Shown piece by piece: positions 23,383 to 27,797 of a stretch of 33,622 nucleotides of DNA. The stretch spans positions 1-33,622 of the forward strand of contig CALCCK010000046.1 of assembly GCA_937899995.1 (NCBI GenBank). Direction: 5' to 3'. The translations under genes and the position numbers were made by a program. The first letter of the stretch is position 1, and each line of letters begins with the position of its first letter. Below the pieces are notes generated by a model, which saw only the letters and a list, made by a program, of their open reading frames with translations, did not search any database and was not told the DNA's origin. This DNA is from an uncultured Gammaproteobacteria bacterium (lineage in GTDB: Bacteria > Pseudomonadota > Gammaproteobacteria > PS1 > Pseudothioglobaceae).

Positions 23383-23889
23383 CTAGATATCGCCTACTTT
23401 AGCGCCAGCTAGAATTCGTTCTATTTTTGCAGCAACTTCTTCAGCCATCTCTTTGGCACCTGGTGGTAAGTTTAATACAGCCATCACATCGGGGTTCATG
23501 CTAAACATTCTAATTATGCCATCTTTGCCTTCAACTACAGCGATTTTACAAGGTAGGATAACTGTGAAACGATCGTCAACATCAGCAATAACGCCTGCTG
23601 TCTTTGCATCACAAATATTATGAATGCTCAAGTGTCTGTAGTCTGTACCAGTTACATTTCCAATTTGCTCACTAAGTGGGAACATTGCAACATGGAGGAT
23701 GTTCTCGGTAGTTGCCAAAGATTTGATTGATTCGTCTACTTCTTTACCAGTAATGCCTTTGTCAACTACAGTAATTTGAATCATAGCCATAAATTGTTCA
23801 GGCATAATTTCTACTTTTTCTGCATTTACTGCACTAGACATCGCCAAGATATTAAAAAATGCTAAGATAGCAATTAGTTTATTTTTCAT
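23383..23889 (-). CDS. Exported DUF302 protein
   Basis: A 168-residue protein with a signal peptide (KNKLIAILAFFNILAMSSAVNA) and a DUF302 domain: KSLATTENILHVAMFPLSEQI, the LSIHNICDAKTAGVIADVDDRF segment, LPCKIAVVEGKDG and FSMNPDVMAVL. DUF302 proteins are often found near sulfur-oxidation and cytochrome genes; the role is unknown. Two Cys (in NICDA and LPCKI) may form a pair. A good Shine-Dalgarno (GGAG) precedes it. It is divergent from the rhodanese-MBL pair, suggesting a shared regulatory gap of 108 bases. Confidence 0.88.
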   Translation of the reverse strand: MKNKLIAILAFFNILAMSSAVNAEKVEIMPEQFMAMIQITVVDKGITGKEVDESIKSLATTENILHVAMFPLSEQIGNVTGTDYRHLSIHNICDAKTAGVIADVDDRFTVILPCKIAVVEGKDGIIRMFSMNPDVMAVLNLPPGAKEMAEEVAAKIERILAGAKVGDI

Positions 23890-23997: not shown

Positions 23998-25323
23998 ATG
24001 AATCGTTATTTATTATTGATTAGTTTGTTATTTTCTGTGATTAACCTTGTACAGGCAGATGCTGGAGTCCATGTAGAAGTAACTAATGGTAATAAAATGC
24101 TTGAAACTATTAACAAAGACATTGTTAATATCAATACCCAGCAACTCAAAGAGATACTTGATAAAGACCCATATACTGTTTTGATTGATGTTCGTACTCG
24201 AGATGAAATTGTGCAACTTGGTGCTATTCGTAGAGGTCAAAATCATAATATCGTTAGAGGCTGGTTAGAATTTCAAATTGGAGAGCATGCTGTTAATTAT
24301 GACACGCCAATTATTGTCTATTGTGGGCTAAATCTACGTTCGCCTTTGGCCACAAAGACCTTAATGAATATGGGTTATATCAATGTTAAGAATTATTCTG
24401 ATGGTTATTTCAAATGGAAAGAAGCCGGACTATCTATCACAGTCAGTGATAAAGCGTTAAAGAGCGCATTGTACTCATTACCAATTAAAGTTGACGAAGG
24501 TGTTTATTCTGCTATTGGTGCCACTCAGCCAGCCACTTATGAAAACGGCAATCATAACAACAATCTCTCGTTTATTGTGACCACAGATGGCGTACTGGTG
24601 TTTAATGCTGGTGGTAGTTACCTACTCGCAAAAGCCCTGCACGATGAGATTAAAAAAGTAACTAATCAGTCTGTTAAACATGTGGTGTTTGAAAATGCGC
24701 AAGGGCATGCCATACTCGGTGCTCCATATTGGAAAGAGCAAGGCGCTAATATTATTGCCCATAAATTAACACTTGAGACTATCGTCAAAAAAGGTGATGA
24801 AATTTATCAGCGTGCAGAGCGACGTTTACGAGACAAGATTGTTGGTTCGGCTGCAATAAAACCAGATCAAATATTTGATGATGGGTTGAGTATTACTATG
24901 GGGAATACTGTTATTGAACTGATGCACCTAGGCGCTTCACATTCTCCAGATGATGTACAACTATGGCTGCCAGCGCAAAAGCTACTTATTAGTGGTGATA
25001 GCGCCTTTAATGAACGCTTATTACCAATCTTGGGGCATACTGACACTCAGGGCTGGATTGAAACTTGGGACAAGATCGAAGCCTTAGAGCCAAATATTAT
25101 AATTCCTGGACATGGCGCTCCAACTGATTTGGCGACAGTCACTAAATTCACTAAGGATTATTTAGTTTATATGCGCTCTGAAATTGAGAAGGTCTTGGAT
25201 AAAGATGGTGGGCTGAATGAGGCTTATGCAATTGATCAGACTAGGTATCATGATTGGGGTACTTATAATGAATTATATAGACAAAATGCATCACGTATGC
25301 TTAAGCAGATGGAGTTTGAATAG
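23998..25323 (+). CDS. Exported rhodanese-metallo-beta-lactamase fusion protein, copy 1
   Basis: 441 residues: signal peptide (1-20), rhodanese domain (about 45-147) with the active-site Cys109 in VYCGLNLRSP, then a metallo-beta-lactamase (MBL) fold (about 170-400). The HxHxDH metal motif that should follow the second strand is replaced by N233-A-Q235-G-H237-A238 in FENAQGHAILG. The later ligands are kept: His315 (GASHSPDD), Asp334 (ISGDSAF) and His372 (IPGHG). The domain resembles SoxH-type MBLs. It has AAGGG before its ATG. It may act on persulfide or thiol substrates in the periplasm (inference). Confidence 0.88.
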   Translation: MNRYLLLISLLFSVINLVQADAGVHVEVTNGNKMLETINKDIVNINTQQLKEILDKDPYTVLIDVRTRDEIVQLGAIRRGQNHNIVRGWLEFQIGEHAVNYDTPIIVYCGLNLRSPLATKTLMNMGYINVKNYSDGYFKWKEAGLSITVSDKALKSALYSLPIKVDEGVYSAIGATQPATYENGNHNNNLSFIVTTDGVLVFNAGGSYLLAKALHDEIKKVTNQSVKHVVFENAQGHAILGAPYWKEQGANIIAHKLTLETIVKKGDEIYQRAERRLRDKIVGSAAIKPDQIFDDGLSITMGNTVIELMHLGASHSPDDVQLWLPAQKLLISGDSAFNERLLPILGHTDTQGWIETWDKIEALEPNIIIPGHGAPTDLATVTKFTKDYLVYMRSEIEKVLDKDGGLNEAYAIDQTRYHDWGTYNELYRQNASRMLKQMEFE

Positions 25324-25460
25324 TGTCTAAATTTTTTTTAGAAAATTTAACTATATTTATTAGACTCTAACCTGATTTTTTAAAATTTATCTTAAAATTA
25401 TCAATATATTTACCAATAGATAAATCCGGACATTACAGTTAAAATTAAATTATTTTTCTT

Positions 25461-26762
25461 ATGAAACATTTTCTATTATTTTTCTTTTTATTTGTTAACA
25501 CCTTCGTGCACAGTGTATTGGTTGATGTTGATAAGATGCTTGAGACTGTTAACAAAGAGATTGTTAACATTAATACCCAGCAACTCAAAGAGATACTTGA
25601 TAAAGATCCGTATACTGTTTTGATTGATGTTCGTACTCGAGATGAAATTGTACAATTTGGTGCGATTCATCGTGGACAAAATAAACACGTTCCTAGAGGA
25701 TTTTTAGAGTTTCAAATAGGGGAACATGCCGTTAGTGAAGACACGCCTATTATTGTTTATTGCGACCGCAGTAGACGATCTCCTTTGGCGGCAAAAACAT
25801 TGATGAATATGGGTTATACCAATGTTAAGAATTATGCTGATGGATTTTCTAAGTGGAAAGAGGCCGGCCTACCTTATACAATAAGTGATCAAGCACCGGA
25901 GAATGCCCTATATTCAAATCCAGTTGAAGTTATTAAGGGTGTTTATTCTGCGATTGGTGCAACACAGCCTGCTAGCTATGAAAACTCTGGACATAACAAT
26001 AACTTATCTTTTATTGTTGCCGACGATGCAGTGGTTGTTTTCAATGCTGGAGGTAGTTACCTATTAGCAAAAACCCTGCATGATAAGATTAAGGAAATAA
26101 CCAGTTTACCGGTTAAATATGTGGTGTTAGAGAATGCACAAGGTCATGCCATGCTAGGTTCTAATTATTGGAAAGAGCAGGGCGCTATTATTATTGCGCA
26201 TGCGTATGCTGCTAAGATTATTAAAAACAGAAATGAAGATATCTTTGATCGCTCCTATCGCCGTTTAAAAGACAAGATGTACAAAACAAAGGTTGTTATG
26301 CCTGACCAAACCTTTGAGGATCACCTGGTGTTAGATGTAGCAGGAAGAAAGATAGAATTGTTACACTTGGGTCCTTCACATGGACCGGCAGATATACAAC
26401 TGTGGATGCCAGAAGAGCGACTATTAATATCGGGTGATTTGGCTTTTAATGTTCGATTATTGCCAATCCTTGATCATACCGATATTAGAGGCTGGATCCA
26501 GACGTGGGATAAATTAGAAGCACTAAATGCGAGTGTGATTATTCCTGGTCATGGTGGCCCCACGGACATTAAAACTGTGACTAAATTCACCAAAGATTAT
26601 TTGCTTTATATGTTGACAGAGGTGGAAAAAGTGATAGATAATGATGGTGAGTTGATTGACGCTTATAAAATTGACGTCAGTCGCTTTATCCAATGGGATA
26701 CGTTTAATGAATTGTCAAAACGTAATGCTGAGAGAATTTTTAGAAAGCTAGAGTTTGAATAA
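25461..26762 (+). CDS. Exported rhodanese-metallo-beta-lactamase fusion protein, copy 2
   Basis: A 433-residue tandem paralogue of the gene upstream, with the same architecture: signal peptide (to about 18), rhodanese with Cys101 in VYCDRSRRSP, and an MBL domain. The MBL motif is again N225-A-Q227-G-H229-A230 in place of HxHxDH, while His307 (GPSHGPAD), Asp326 (ISGDLAF) and His364 (IPGHG) are kept. The change is thus shared and not random decay. The rhodanese loop differs (DRSRR instead of GLNLR), suggesting different substrates. The double-thioredoxin gene follows 18 bases later. The 137-base gap before it is AT-rich with nested inverted repeats (25325-25365). Confidence 0.88.
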   Translation: MKHFLLFFFLFVNTFVHSVLVDVDKMLETVNKEIVNINTQQLKEILDKDPYTVLIDVRTRDEIVQFGAIHRGQNKHVPRGFLEFQIGEHAVSEDTPIIVYCDRSRRSPLAAKTLMNMGYTNVKNYADGFSKWKEAGLPYTISDQAPENALYSNPVEVIKGVYSAIGATQPASYENSGHNNNLSFIVADDAVVVFNAGGSYLLAKTLHDKIKEITSLPVKYVVLENAQGHAMLGSNYWKEQGAIIIAHAYAAKIIKNRNEDIFDRSYRRLKDKMYKTKVVMPDQTFEDHLVLDVAGRKIELLHLGPSHGPADIQLWMPEERLLISGDLAFNVRLLPILDHTDIRGWIQTWDKLEALNASVIIPGHGGPTDIKTVTKFTKDYLLYMLTEVEKVIDNDGELIDAYKIDVSRFIQWDTFNELSKRNAERIFRKLEFE

Positions 26763-26780: not shown

Positions 26781-27797
26781 ATGAAATATTTTAAATTGAT
26801 ATTGGCTATTTTTATGTTGAGTGGTTTGTTTACTCATGTAAATGCAATTGAGCCTGGGAAAATTATTGGTGGAAAGGTATCTGAACTACCTGAGTGGTTT
26901 AAGGATAGTTTTTTAGACATTGCTGAAGATGTAGAAGAAGCGAAGGATGAAAATAAGCACCTAATGCTTTACATGCACTTAACGGGCTGCCCATATTGTT
27001 ACAAGATGGTGGAAGAGGGTTTTAAAAACAATACCAATACTCAAATCATTAAAGATAACTTTGATGTGGTGGCGATCAACATTCGTGGCAATAAAGAAGT
27101 TGCATTAAATGAAGATTTGATCATGACCGAAGAAGAGGTCAGAAACCACTTTAAAGTTAACTTCACCCCAACCATTGTTTTCTTAGATCAAAACAATAAA
27201 TTAGTCTATAAAGTTAATGGTTATCGTTCGGTTGAGAATTTTAAGCACATCCTTAATTTTGTAAAGAGTCGTGCCTATCAAAATATTACGTTAGCTGAGT
27301 TTATTTTGCAGCAAAAACGCACCAAACATTATCAATTTAAAGGTCACAGTAGTTTTCAATCAATTACAGATTTAAGCGTAAAAAGAGACAAGCCATTATT
27401 GGTGTTGTTTGAAGACCAATATTGTGTAATGTGTAATCGATTGCATGATGGGCACTTAAAAAATCCTGAAATTTTAAAAGAATTAGATTTGTTTGATGTG
27501 GTGCGCTTCGATGCAGAGTCTGATCAAGTCATTATTGATGTTGATGGTAATAAAACCACACCAAGACAGTACGTTAAGAAATTAAGTTTGAATTATCGAC
27601 CAGGCATTGTCATGTTTGATCAAGGCGTTGAAGTAATGCGTATTGATGCATTATTGTACACTTATCATTTTGCAGGCCATCTGCGCTATATTGGTGAGAG
27701 ACACTATAAACAATACCCAGATAGTGTATTTGATTATTTACGTGTTTACCGACAAAAGATACTCGATGCTGGGCAAGATATCGATTTATCTAAATAG
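26781..27797 (+). CDS. Exported double-thioredoxin-fold protein (SoxW-like)
   Basis: 338 residues: a signal peptide (to about 22), then two thioredoxin folds. The first has C70-P-Y-C73 in LTGCPYCYKM with a cis-Pro in FTPTIVFLD. The second has C215-V-M-C218 in DQYCVMCNRLHDG with a YRPGIVMFD strand. The first resembles periplasmic SoxW-type thioredoxins. Two redox sites in one chain suggest electron relay or thiol exchange in the periplasm. A strong Shine-Dalgarno (AGGGGAG) and an 18-base gap place it in one operon with the rhodanese-MBL pair. Its stop is one base from that of the convergent gene. Confidence 0.85.
   Translation: MKYFKLILAIFMLSGLFTHVNAIEPGKIIGGKVSELPEWFKDSFLDIAEDVEEAKDENKHLMLYMHLTGCPYCYKMVEEGFKNNTNTQIIKDNFDVVAINIRGNKEVALNEDLIMTEEEVRNHFKVNFTPTIVFLDQNNKLVYKVNGYRSVENFKHILNFVKSRAYQNITLAEFILQQKRTKHYQFKGHSSFQSITDLSVKRDKPLLVLFEDQYCVMCNRLHDGHLKNPEILKELDLFDVVRFDAESDQVIIDVDGNKTTPRQYVKKLSLNYRPGIVMFDQGVEVMRIDALLYTYHFAGHLRYIGERHYKQYPDSVFDYLRVYRQKILDAGQDIDLSK

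Follow-up and report, generated by a model that had tools for sequence, protein, structure and literature searches.

Two tandem rhodanese-MBL fusion genes

The window, i.e., the whole stretch of 33,622 nucleotides that was analyzed, contains two tandem genes which each encode a rhodanese domain followed by a metallo-beta-lactamase (MBL) domain of the SoxH type. The genes, their neighbors and the residues discussed below are located as follows (MBL positions in brackets):

23383..23889, minus strand: DUF302 protein, divergent neighbor of copy 1
23998..25323, plus strand: copy 1 (P0001, 441 aa; ORF, Pfam), putative signal peptide, rhodanese and SoxH-type MBL
24136..24426, plus strand: copy 1 rhodanese domain, aa 47-143 (PF00581, E 7.6e-12)
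24322..24324, plus strand: copy 1 rhodanese Cys109 in the loop CGLNLR
24463..25320, plus strand: copy 1 SoxH-type MBL domain, aa 156-441
24604..24606, plus strand: copy 1 Asn203, replacing the motif I Asp of MBLs
24694..24711, plus strand: copy 1 NAQGHA at the HxHxDH position (N233, Q235, H237, A238)
24940..24942, plus strand: copy 1 retained ligand H315 (H196 position)
24997..24999, plus strand: copy 1 retained ligand D334 (D221 position)
25111..25113, plus strand: copy 1 retained ligand H372 (H263 position)
25461..26762, plus strand: copy 2 (P0002, 433 aa; ORF, Pfam), putative signal peptide, rhodanese and SoxH-type MBL
25575..25865, plus strand: copy 2 rhodanese domain, aa 39-135 (PF00581, E 5.6e-15)
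25761..25763, plus strand: copy 2 rhodanese Cys101 in the loop CDRSRR
25902..26759, plus strand: copy 2 SoxH-type MBL domain, aa 148-433
26043..26045, plus strand: copy 2 Asn195, replacing the motif I Asp
26133..26150, plus strand: copy 2 NAQGHA at the HxHxDH position (N225, Q227, H229, A230)
26379..26381, plus strand: copy 2 retained ligand H307 (H196 position)
26436..26438, plus strand: copy 2 retained ligand D326 (D221 position)
26550..26552, plus strand: copy 2 retained ligand H364 (H263 position)
26781..27797, plus strand: double thioredoxin-like protein (CPYC, CVMC), 18 bp downstream of copy 2

In both fusions, the Pfam domains Rhodanese (PF00581) and Lactamase_B (PF00753) score above the gathering threshold. 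Hydrophobic N-termini were spotted by eye in both sequences, and both genes are predicted to encode exported proteins with a periplasmic location. At the start of the rhodanese domain (25551-25640 in copy 2 versus 24112-24201 in copy 1), the DNA of the two copies is 94% identical and, therefore, gene conversion between the tandem copies is probable in this part of the sequence; third positions are 83% identical in this stretch, compared to about 50% elsewhere.

The altered motif is real and conserved

The original prediction was that both paralogs carry NAQGHA in place of HxHxDH, so that both N-terminal His ligands and the Asp-His pair are changed, while the later His, Asp and His ligands, the surrounding fold and the rhodanese Cys are kept. 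The motif was found exactly at 24694-24711 and 26133-26150. In ungapped profile alignments, N-x-Q-x-H-A falls on N116-x-H118-x-D120-R121 of CphA-type enzymes and on HxHxDH of canonical relatives, which confirms the loss of all four residues and rules out a misalignment by one residue. A hidden canonical motif is likewise ruled out, as HxHxDH is absent from the rest of both proteins. The later ligands are indeed present (H315, D334 and H372 in copy 1; H307, D326 and H364 in copy 2), and so is the rhodanese Cys in both window copies. For the latter, a qualification is necessary: Cys is retained in most fusions, but Ser is found in the orthologs L006:5001-6305 (VYSGQNLRSP) and L030 (VYSNDSKRSI), and sulfur transfer by the rhodanese domain is therefore not universal.

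Homologs were gathered from genomes and contigs, resulting in 92 MBL domains which fall into three motif classes: class A with EN[GAS]QxH[AS], class B with TGxQDHR, and class C with the canonical THxHxDH. Five positions are invariant (100%) across the 54 distinct rows of class A, namely N(116), H(120), H(196), D(221) and H(263), while Q(118) is conserved in 98% and A(121) in 94%. The Asp of MBL motif I is found in every class B and class C row and is replaced by Asn in 98% of class A. Thus, five usual site residues changed together in class A and three were kept. Codons at the fixed sites are mixed (AAC/AAT 24/30, CAA/CAG 27/27, CAT/CAC 39/15), and dN is well below dS both between copy 2 and L006 (0.11 versus 0.97) and between the two copies (0.26 versus 1.33). 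By these measures, the fusion genes are under purifying selection, and a pseudogene or random drift is ruled out by the low dN/dS and the residue conservation. Since the residues are invariant or nearly so in 54 homologs despite synonymous codon variation, with a low dN/dS, the sequence comparison indicates that the motif is not due to chance. The only truly decayed copy seen is L033 (G009:C1:674053-675216), a fusion gene with about nine stops from a genus of the window's family; soxB and dsrA are present in this genus, and no intact fusion copy was found in those of its genomes which were searched.

The domain architecture of class A is variable. N-terminal rhodanese domains are found in 28 of the class A rows listed, two of which are the window's own copies, and about half of the family has no rhodanese. 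In three proteins of approximately 600 aa (L046, L051, L052), a dienelactone-hydrolase domain takes the place of the rhodanese, as assigned by Pfam for L046/L112 and L051 and by length and similarity for L052.

The fusions group with SoxH of Paracoccus

SoxH has been listed to date as an accessory Sox protein without an assigned function, and it shares its name with zinc hydrolases of PQQ-alcohol-dehydrogenase clusters. The genes of Paracoccus pantotrophus DSM 11072, assigned by similarity, are arranged in the order soxR-S-V-W-X-Y-Z-A-B-C-D-E-F-G-H. A canonical MBL of 303 aa (soxG) follows soxF, and next to it lies a class A MBL of 317 aa (soxH) with the motif ENGQGHAMLG; both lengths presumably match those published for the two proteins. 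The window domains are 47% (copy 1) and 45% (copy 2) identical to P. pantotrophus SoxH over almost the whole domain length.

In a tree calculated without the motif columns, classes A, B and C each occupy one side of a branch. Classes A and B are joined (SH-aLRT 95), with the class A clade being sister to the TGxQDHR clade and apart from the canonical HxHxDH proteins. The window MBL domains and Paracoccus SoxH form one clade of 58 rows (SH-aLRT 90), or of 57 rows (SH-aLRT 97) when the most divergent row is omitted. As a location in a sox cluster does not define a sequence, membership of the window pair in SoxH rests on this tree, and the pair is counted as a fusion variant because of its N-terminal rhodanese. 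We consider it very likely that the two proteins are rhodanese-SoxH fusions. Because the class A clade includes P. pantotrophus soxH, the sequences identify E-N-[GAS]-Q-x-H-A, rather than T-H-x-H-x-D-H, as the ordinary first-motif signature of true SoxH. Two parts of the original prediction consequently have to be revised: SoxH had been proposed as a canonical comparator, yet true SoxH, as encoded in the sox cluster of Paracoccus, has the same motif, and the change is not peculiar to two paralogs but the normal state of the whole SoxH family. The suggestion that the proteins form a conserved subfamily whose metal site differs is supported by the single clade, the fixed residues and the linked Asp-to-Asn change in motif I. 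As to whether a known family normally has NxQxHA, a named family with the motif exists in SoxH, but no text on an NxQxH motif was found in the literature searched, a scope without the founding SoxH paper.

It is extremely improbable that the window proteins are ordinary two-zinc quinoprotein-relay metallohydrolases (TIGR04558/TIGR04559) whose sequence has drifted. These families are the best NCBIfam matches and span the full domain, but the scores are only 120-136 and 147-176 bits compared to cut-offs of 300 and 280. Further, 23 of the 24 above-cut-off members were readable by script; all of these have the canonical TH.H..DH, and they cluster with the canonical proteins in the tree. The motif, the score and the tree therefore all rule out membership. 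SoxH probably differs from the standard two-zinc hydrolase for which its relatives are named. The profile of subclass B2 beta-lactamases reaches 69-73 bits (cut-off 240), with NxQxHA in the window proteins versus NxHxDR in B2.

Some class B proteins deserve mention in their own right. In L064 and L065, the later His and Asp are also gone (VGPAYGPGD, TGPAG), and their site is likely dead or very different, judging from these residues. On a Pseudosulfitobacter plasmid, a class B MBL (TGGQDHR; L183:7914-8834) is part of an operon with the order ArsR-permease-thioredoxin-MBL-OsmC-cation transporter, which adjoins genes annotated as arsenate reductase (azurin) subunits.

Linkage to sox genes

The window genome (1.24 Mb) contains soxB and dsrA, which suggests a sulfur oxidizer. 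The fusion genes lie outside any sox cluster, and soxB is found on another contig. Outside the window's family, 29 of 30 genomes with class A have soxB compared to 16 of 30 controls (Fisher p 1.7e-4, for hand-picked controls and a test which treats genomes as independent of kinship). Within the family, class A is present in 20 of 27 soxB-positive and none of six soxB-negative genomes; the latter come from only two genera and hence represent at most two independent events.

A class A gene is located in or near a sox cluster in several relatives (L179, L180, L181, L126, L128). Its distance to soxB is 2 kb in one gammaproteobacterium, where both genes have the same orientation, and 5.5 kb in one alphaproteobacterium. 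Class A genes of Paracoccus, Ruegeria and Limimaricola were detected in a translated search of plasmids. The gene of Paracoccus sp. SMMA_5_TC marks one end of a region which also contains soxCBAZYX, YeeE, DUF302, thioredoxins and CcdA; the Ruegeria gene adjoins YeeE, hemA, DUF302, SoxF and soxCBAZYX. A matching order was described in a survey of Sulfitobacter, in which DUF302, 5-aminolevulinate synthase and YeeE are located between soxF and soxH (PMC11034169). The Limimaricola gene (L182:11902-12858) lies near dsbD, TlpA and DsrE genes and adjoins an IS21 element, which suggests that it is mobile.

The neighbors of the fusion genes were also compared. DUF302 genes occur in sox clusters with soxH both in the published survey (PMC11034169) and in loci of this study, and four related loci likewise have the double thioredoxin next to the fusion. 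The correspondence with Paracoccus is by domain only, as no alignment was obtained between the two DUF302 proteins and the thioredoxins are 22% identical. Neighborhoods outside the window's family contain no universal gene partner, and DsrE, SCO1 and RoxA-like neighbors of class A are isolated cases.

Predicted structure and metal site

The full-length model had only moderate confidence around the active site (pLDDT 68-76) and the model of the MBL domain was used in its place (pLDDT 85, pTM 0.86). In this model the MBL fold around the site is retained, with a strand before the motif and a helix after it, as is usual for MBLs. The closest solved fold among the 50 matches listed is chlorothalonil dehalogenase (6uxu; Z 32.4, rmsd 2.4 Å, 277 aligned residues, 17% identity), tied within 1 Z among these matches by 8d2z; B1/B2 lactamases are also among the closest folds. 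Structures of persulfide dioxygenases are absent from these 50 matches, which carries no weight against a relationship to them. The structure 8d2z is a Burkholderia cenocepacia MBL with HYHAVR and PGRG, i.e., an altered metal site in a close relative. Chlorothalonil dehalogenase was suspected from the fold match to be a member of the TGxQDHR clade, which was rejected since its Asp116-His117 are the usual DH positions.

By MBL numbering, both motif His ligands of site 1 and, in site 2, the pair of Asp and His are missing from class A, which has acquired a His at 120. A single-metal enzyme is favored since 6uxu works with a single Zn and CphA, which has Asn116, is a single-zinc enzyme. We put the chance that one metal would be bound by H120, H196, D221 and H263 at roughly even.

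Possible function of the fusions

Taken together, we assign a probability of about 0.8 to the reading that the window pair are rhodanese-SoxH fusions with an altered metal site. Most likely, the fusion would act in the periplasm on protein-bound sulfur, using a site with a single metal (His, His, Asp, His). In copy 2, H229, H307, D326 and H364 would hold one metal, and the Asn and Gln of the motif would be weak ligands or second-shell residues. Sulfane sulfur would be brought to the metal site by the rhodanese Cys, a sulfur group bound to a protein or thiol would be split off there, and the adjacent double thioredoxin might return thiols to the reduced state. A sulfur substrate as such appears likely, whereas any specific reaction is doubtful.

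Several other roles were weighed. The fusion could be an analog of sulfur dioxygenases, in which a mononuclear Fe(II) site uses O2 to oxidize the persulfide on the rhodanese to sulfite, similar to fusions of persulfide dioxygenase (PDO) and rhodanese. Two His and one Asp are available in the window site. Nevertheless, every class A member has Asn in place of the first motif His, which binds iron in PDOs, and the closest folds among the matches listed are chlorothalonil dehalogenase and B1/B2 lactamases. PDOs are generally cytoplasmic, but the fusions have a putative signal peptide. PDOs are themselves MBL-fold enzymes with one Fe on two His and one Asp, rhodanese-PDO fusions exist, and those of cable bacteria also have a broken motif, HxQADY (PMC13047784). 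On balance, we regard a dioxygenase as unlikely. A domain without catalysis, i.e., a metal-free or structural MBL fold on which SoxYZ or thioredoxin would dock as a partner for the rhodanese, would agree with the loss of four of the seven usual metal-site residues and of the motif I Asp. However, all 54 sequences share the three later ligands and the new His, a conservation for which a dead site would have no need, and many class A members have no rhodanese, making this role similarly improbable.

A hydrolase freeing sulfate from the SoxYZ carrier, similar to SoxB, is somewhat less improbable than these two, although we still do not expect it. SoxH of Sulfurimonas/Sulfurovum was proposed to hydrolyze sulfonate from SoxY (PMC11237559, PMC10045233, PMC9122950), and the location in sox clusters of relatives and the co-occurrence with soxB are in agreement with such a role. 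On the other hand, SoxB is already present in almost all these genomes, the Asp which normally positions the hydrolytic water is replaced in class A, and the campylobacterial 'SoxH' on which the proposal is based may belong to another motif class.

Returning to the single-metal reading, the rhodanese fusion hints, in the Rosetta-stone sense, at a sulfane-sulfur carrier as the partner of SoxH, and the residues named here are open to direct tests. More tentatively, true SoxH may be a distinct single-metal class of the MBL fold with a 3-His/1-Asp center, processing sulfane sulfur from a sulfurtransferase, with donor and enzyme joined in one chain in the window proteins; if true, this would give SoxH a function. 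The principal new finding is the SoxH identity of these proteins. The data also set true SoxH apart from the canonical zinc hydrolases which share its name. The metal site of true SoxH was remade once and is now fixed. This separation argues against moving 'zinc metallohydrolase' labels or SoxB-like roles onto SoxH without testing.

Comparison with known systems

TIGR04558/TIGR04559 proteins resemble the window proteins in the overall domain and the C-terminal extension but have the canonical HxHxDH and an association with PQQ dehydrogenases, in contrast to NAQGHA here. Class B, the sister group of class A, shares Gln at 118 and His at 120, but has Gly at 116 and Arg at 121 and retains the motif I Asp. 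CphA (subclass B2), a single-zinc enzyme of related fold, shares Asn116; it has His118 and Asp120 where the window proteins have Gln and His. Chlorothalonil dehalogenase, the closest fold, is a mononuclear-Zn MBL-fold enzyme whose Zn is bound by Asp116, His117, Asn216 and His257, whereas the window proteins have His-Ala at the first two positions by MBL numbering. The rhodanese-PDO fusions of cable bacteria and Bacillota also combine an N-terminal rhodanese with an MBL domain and have a broken motif in Desulfobulbales (PMC13047784), but HxQADY of the latter keeps the first His, and these proteins are PDO-like rather than SoxH-like. Finally, Paracoccus SoxH belongs to the same clade and has the ENxQxHA motif and the later ligands of the window proteins; it is a single-domain protein, while the window proteins are fused to rhodanese, duplicated in tandem and located outside a sox cluster.
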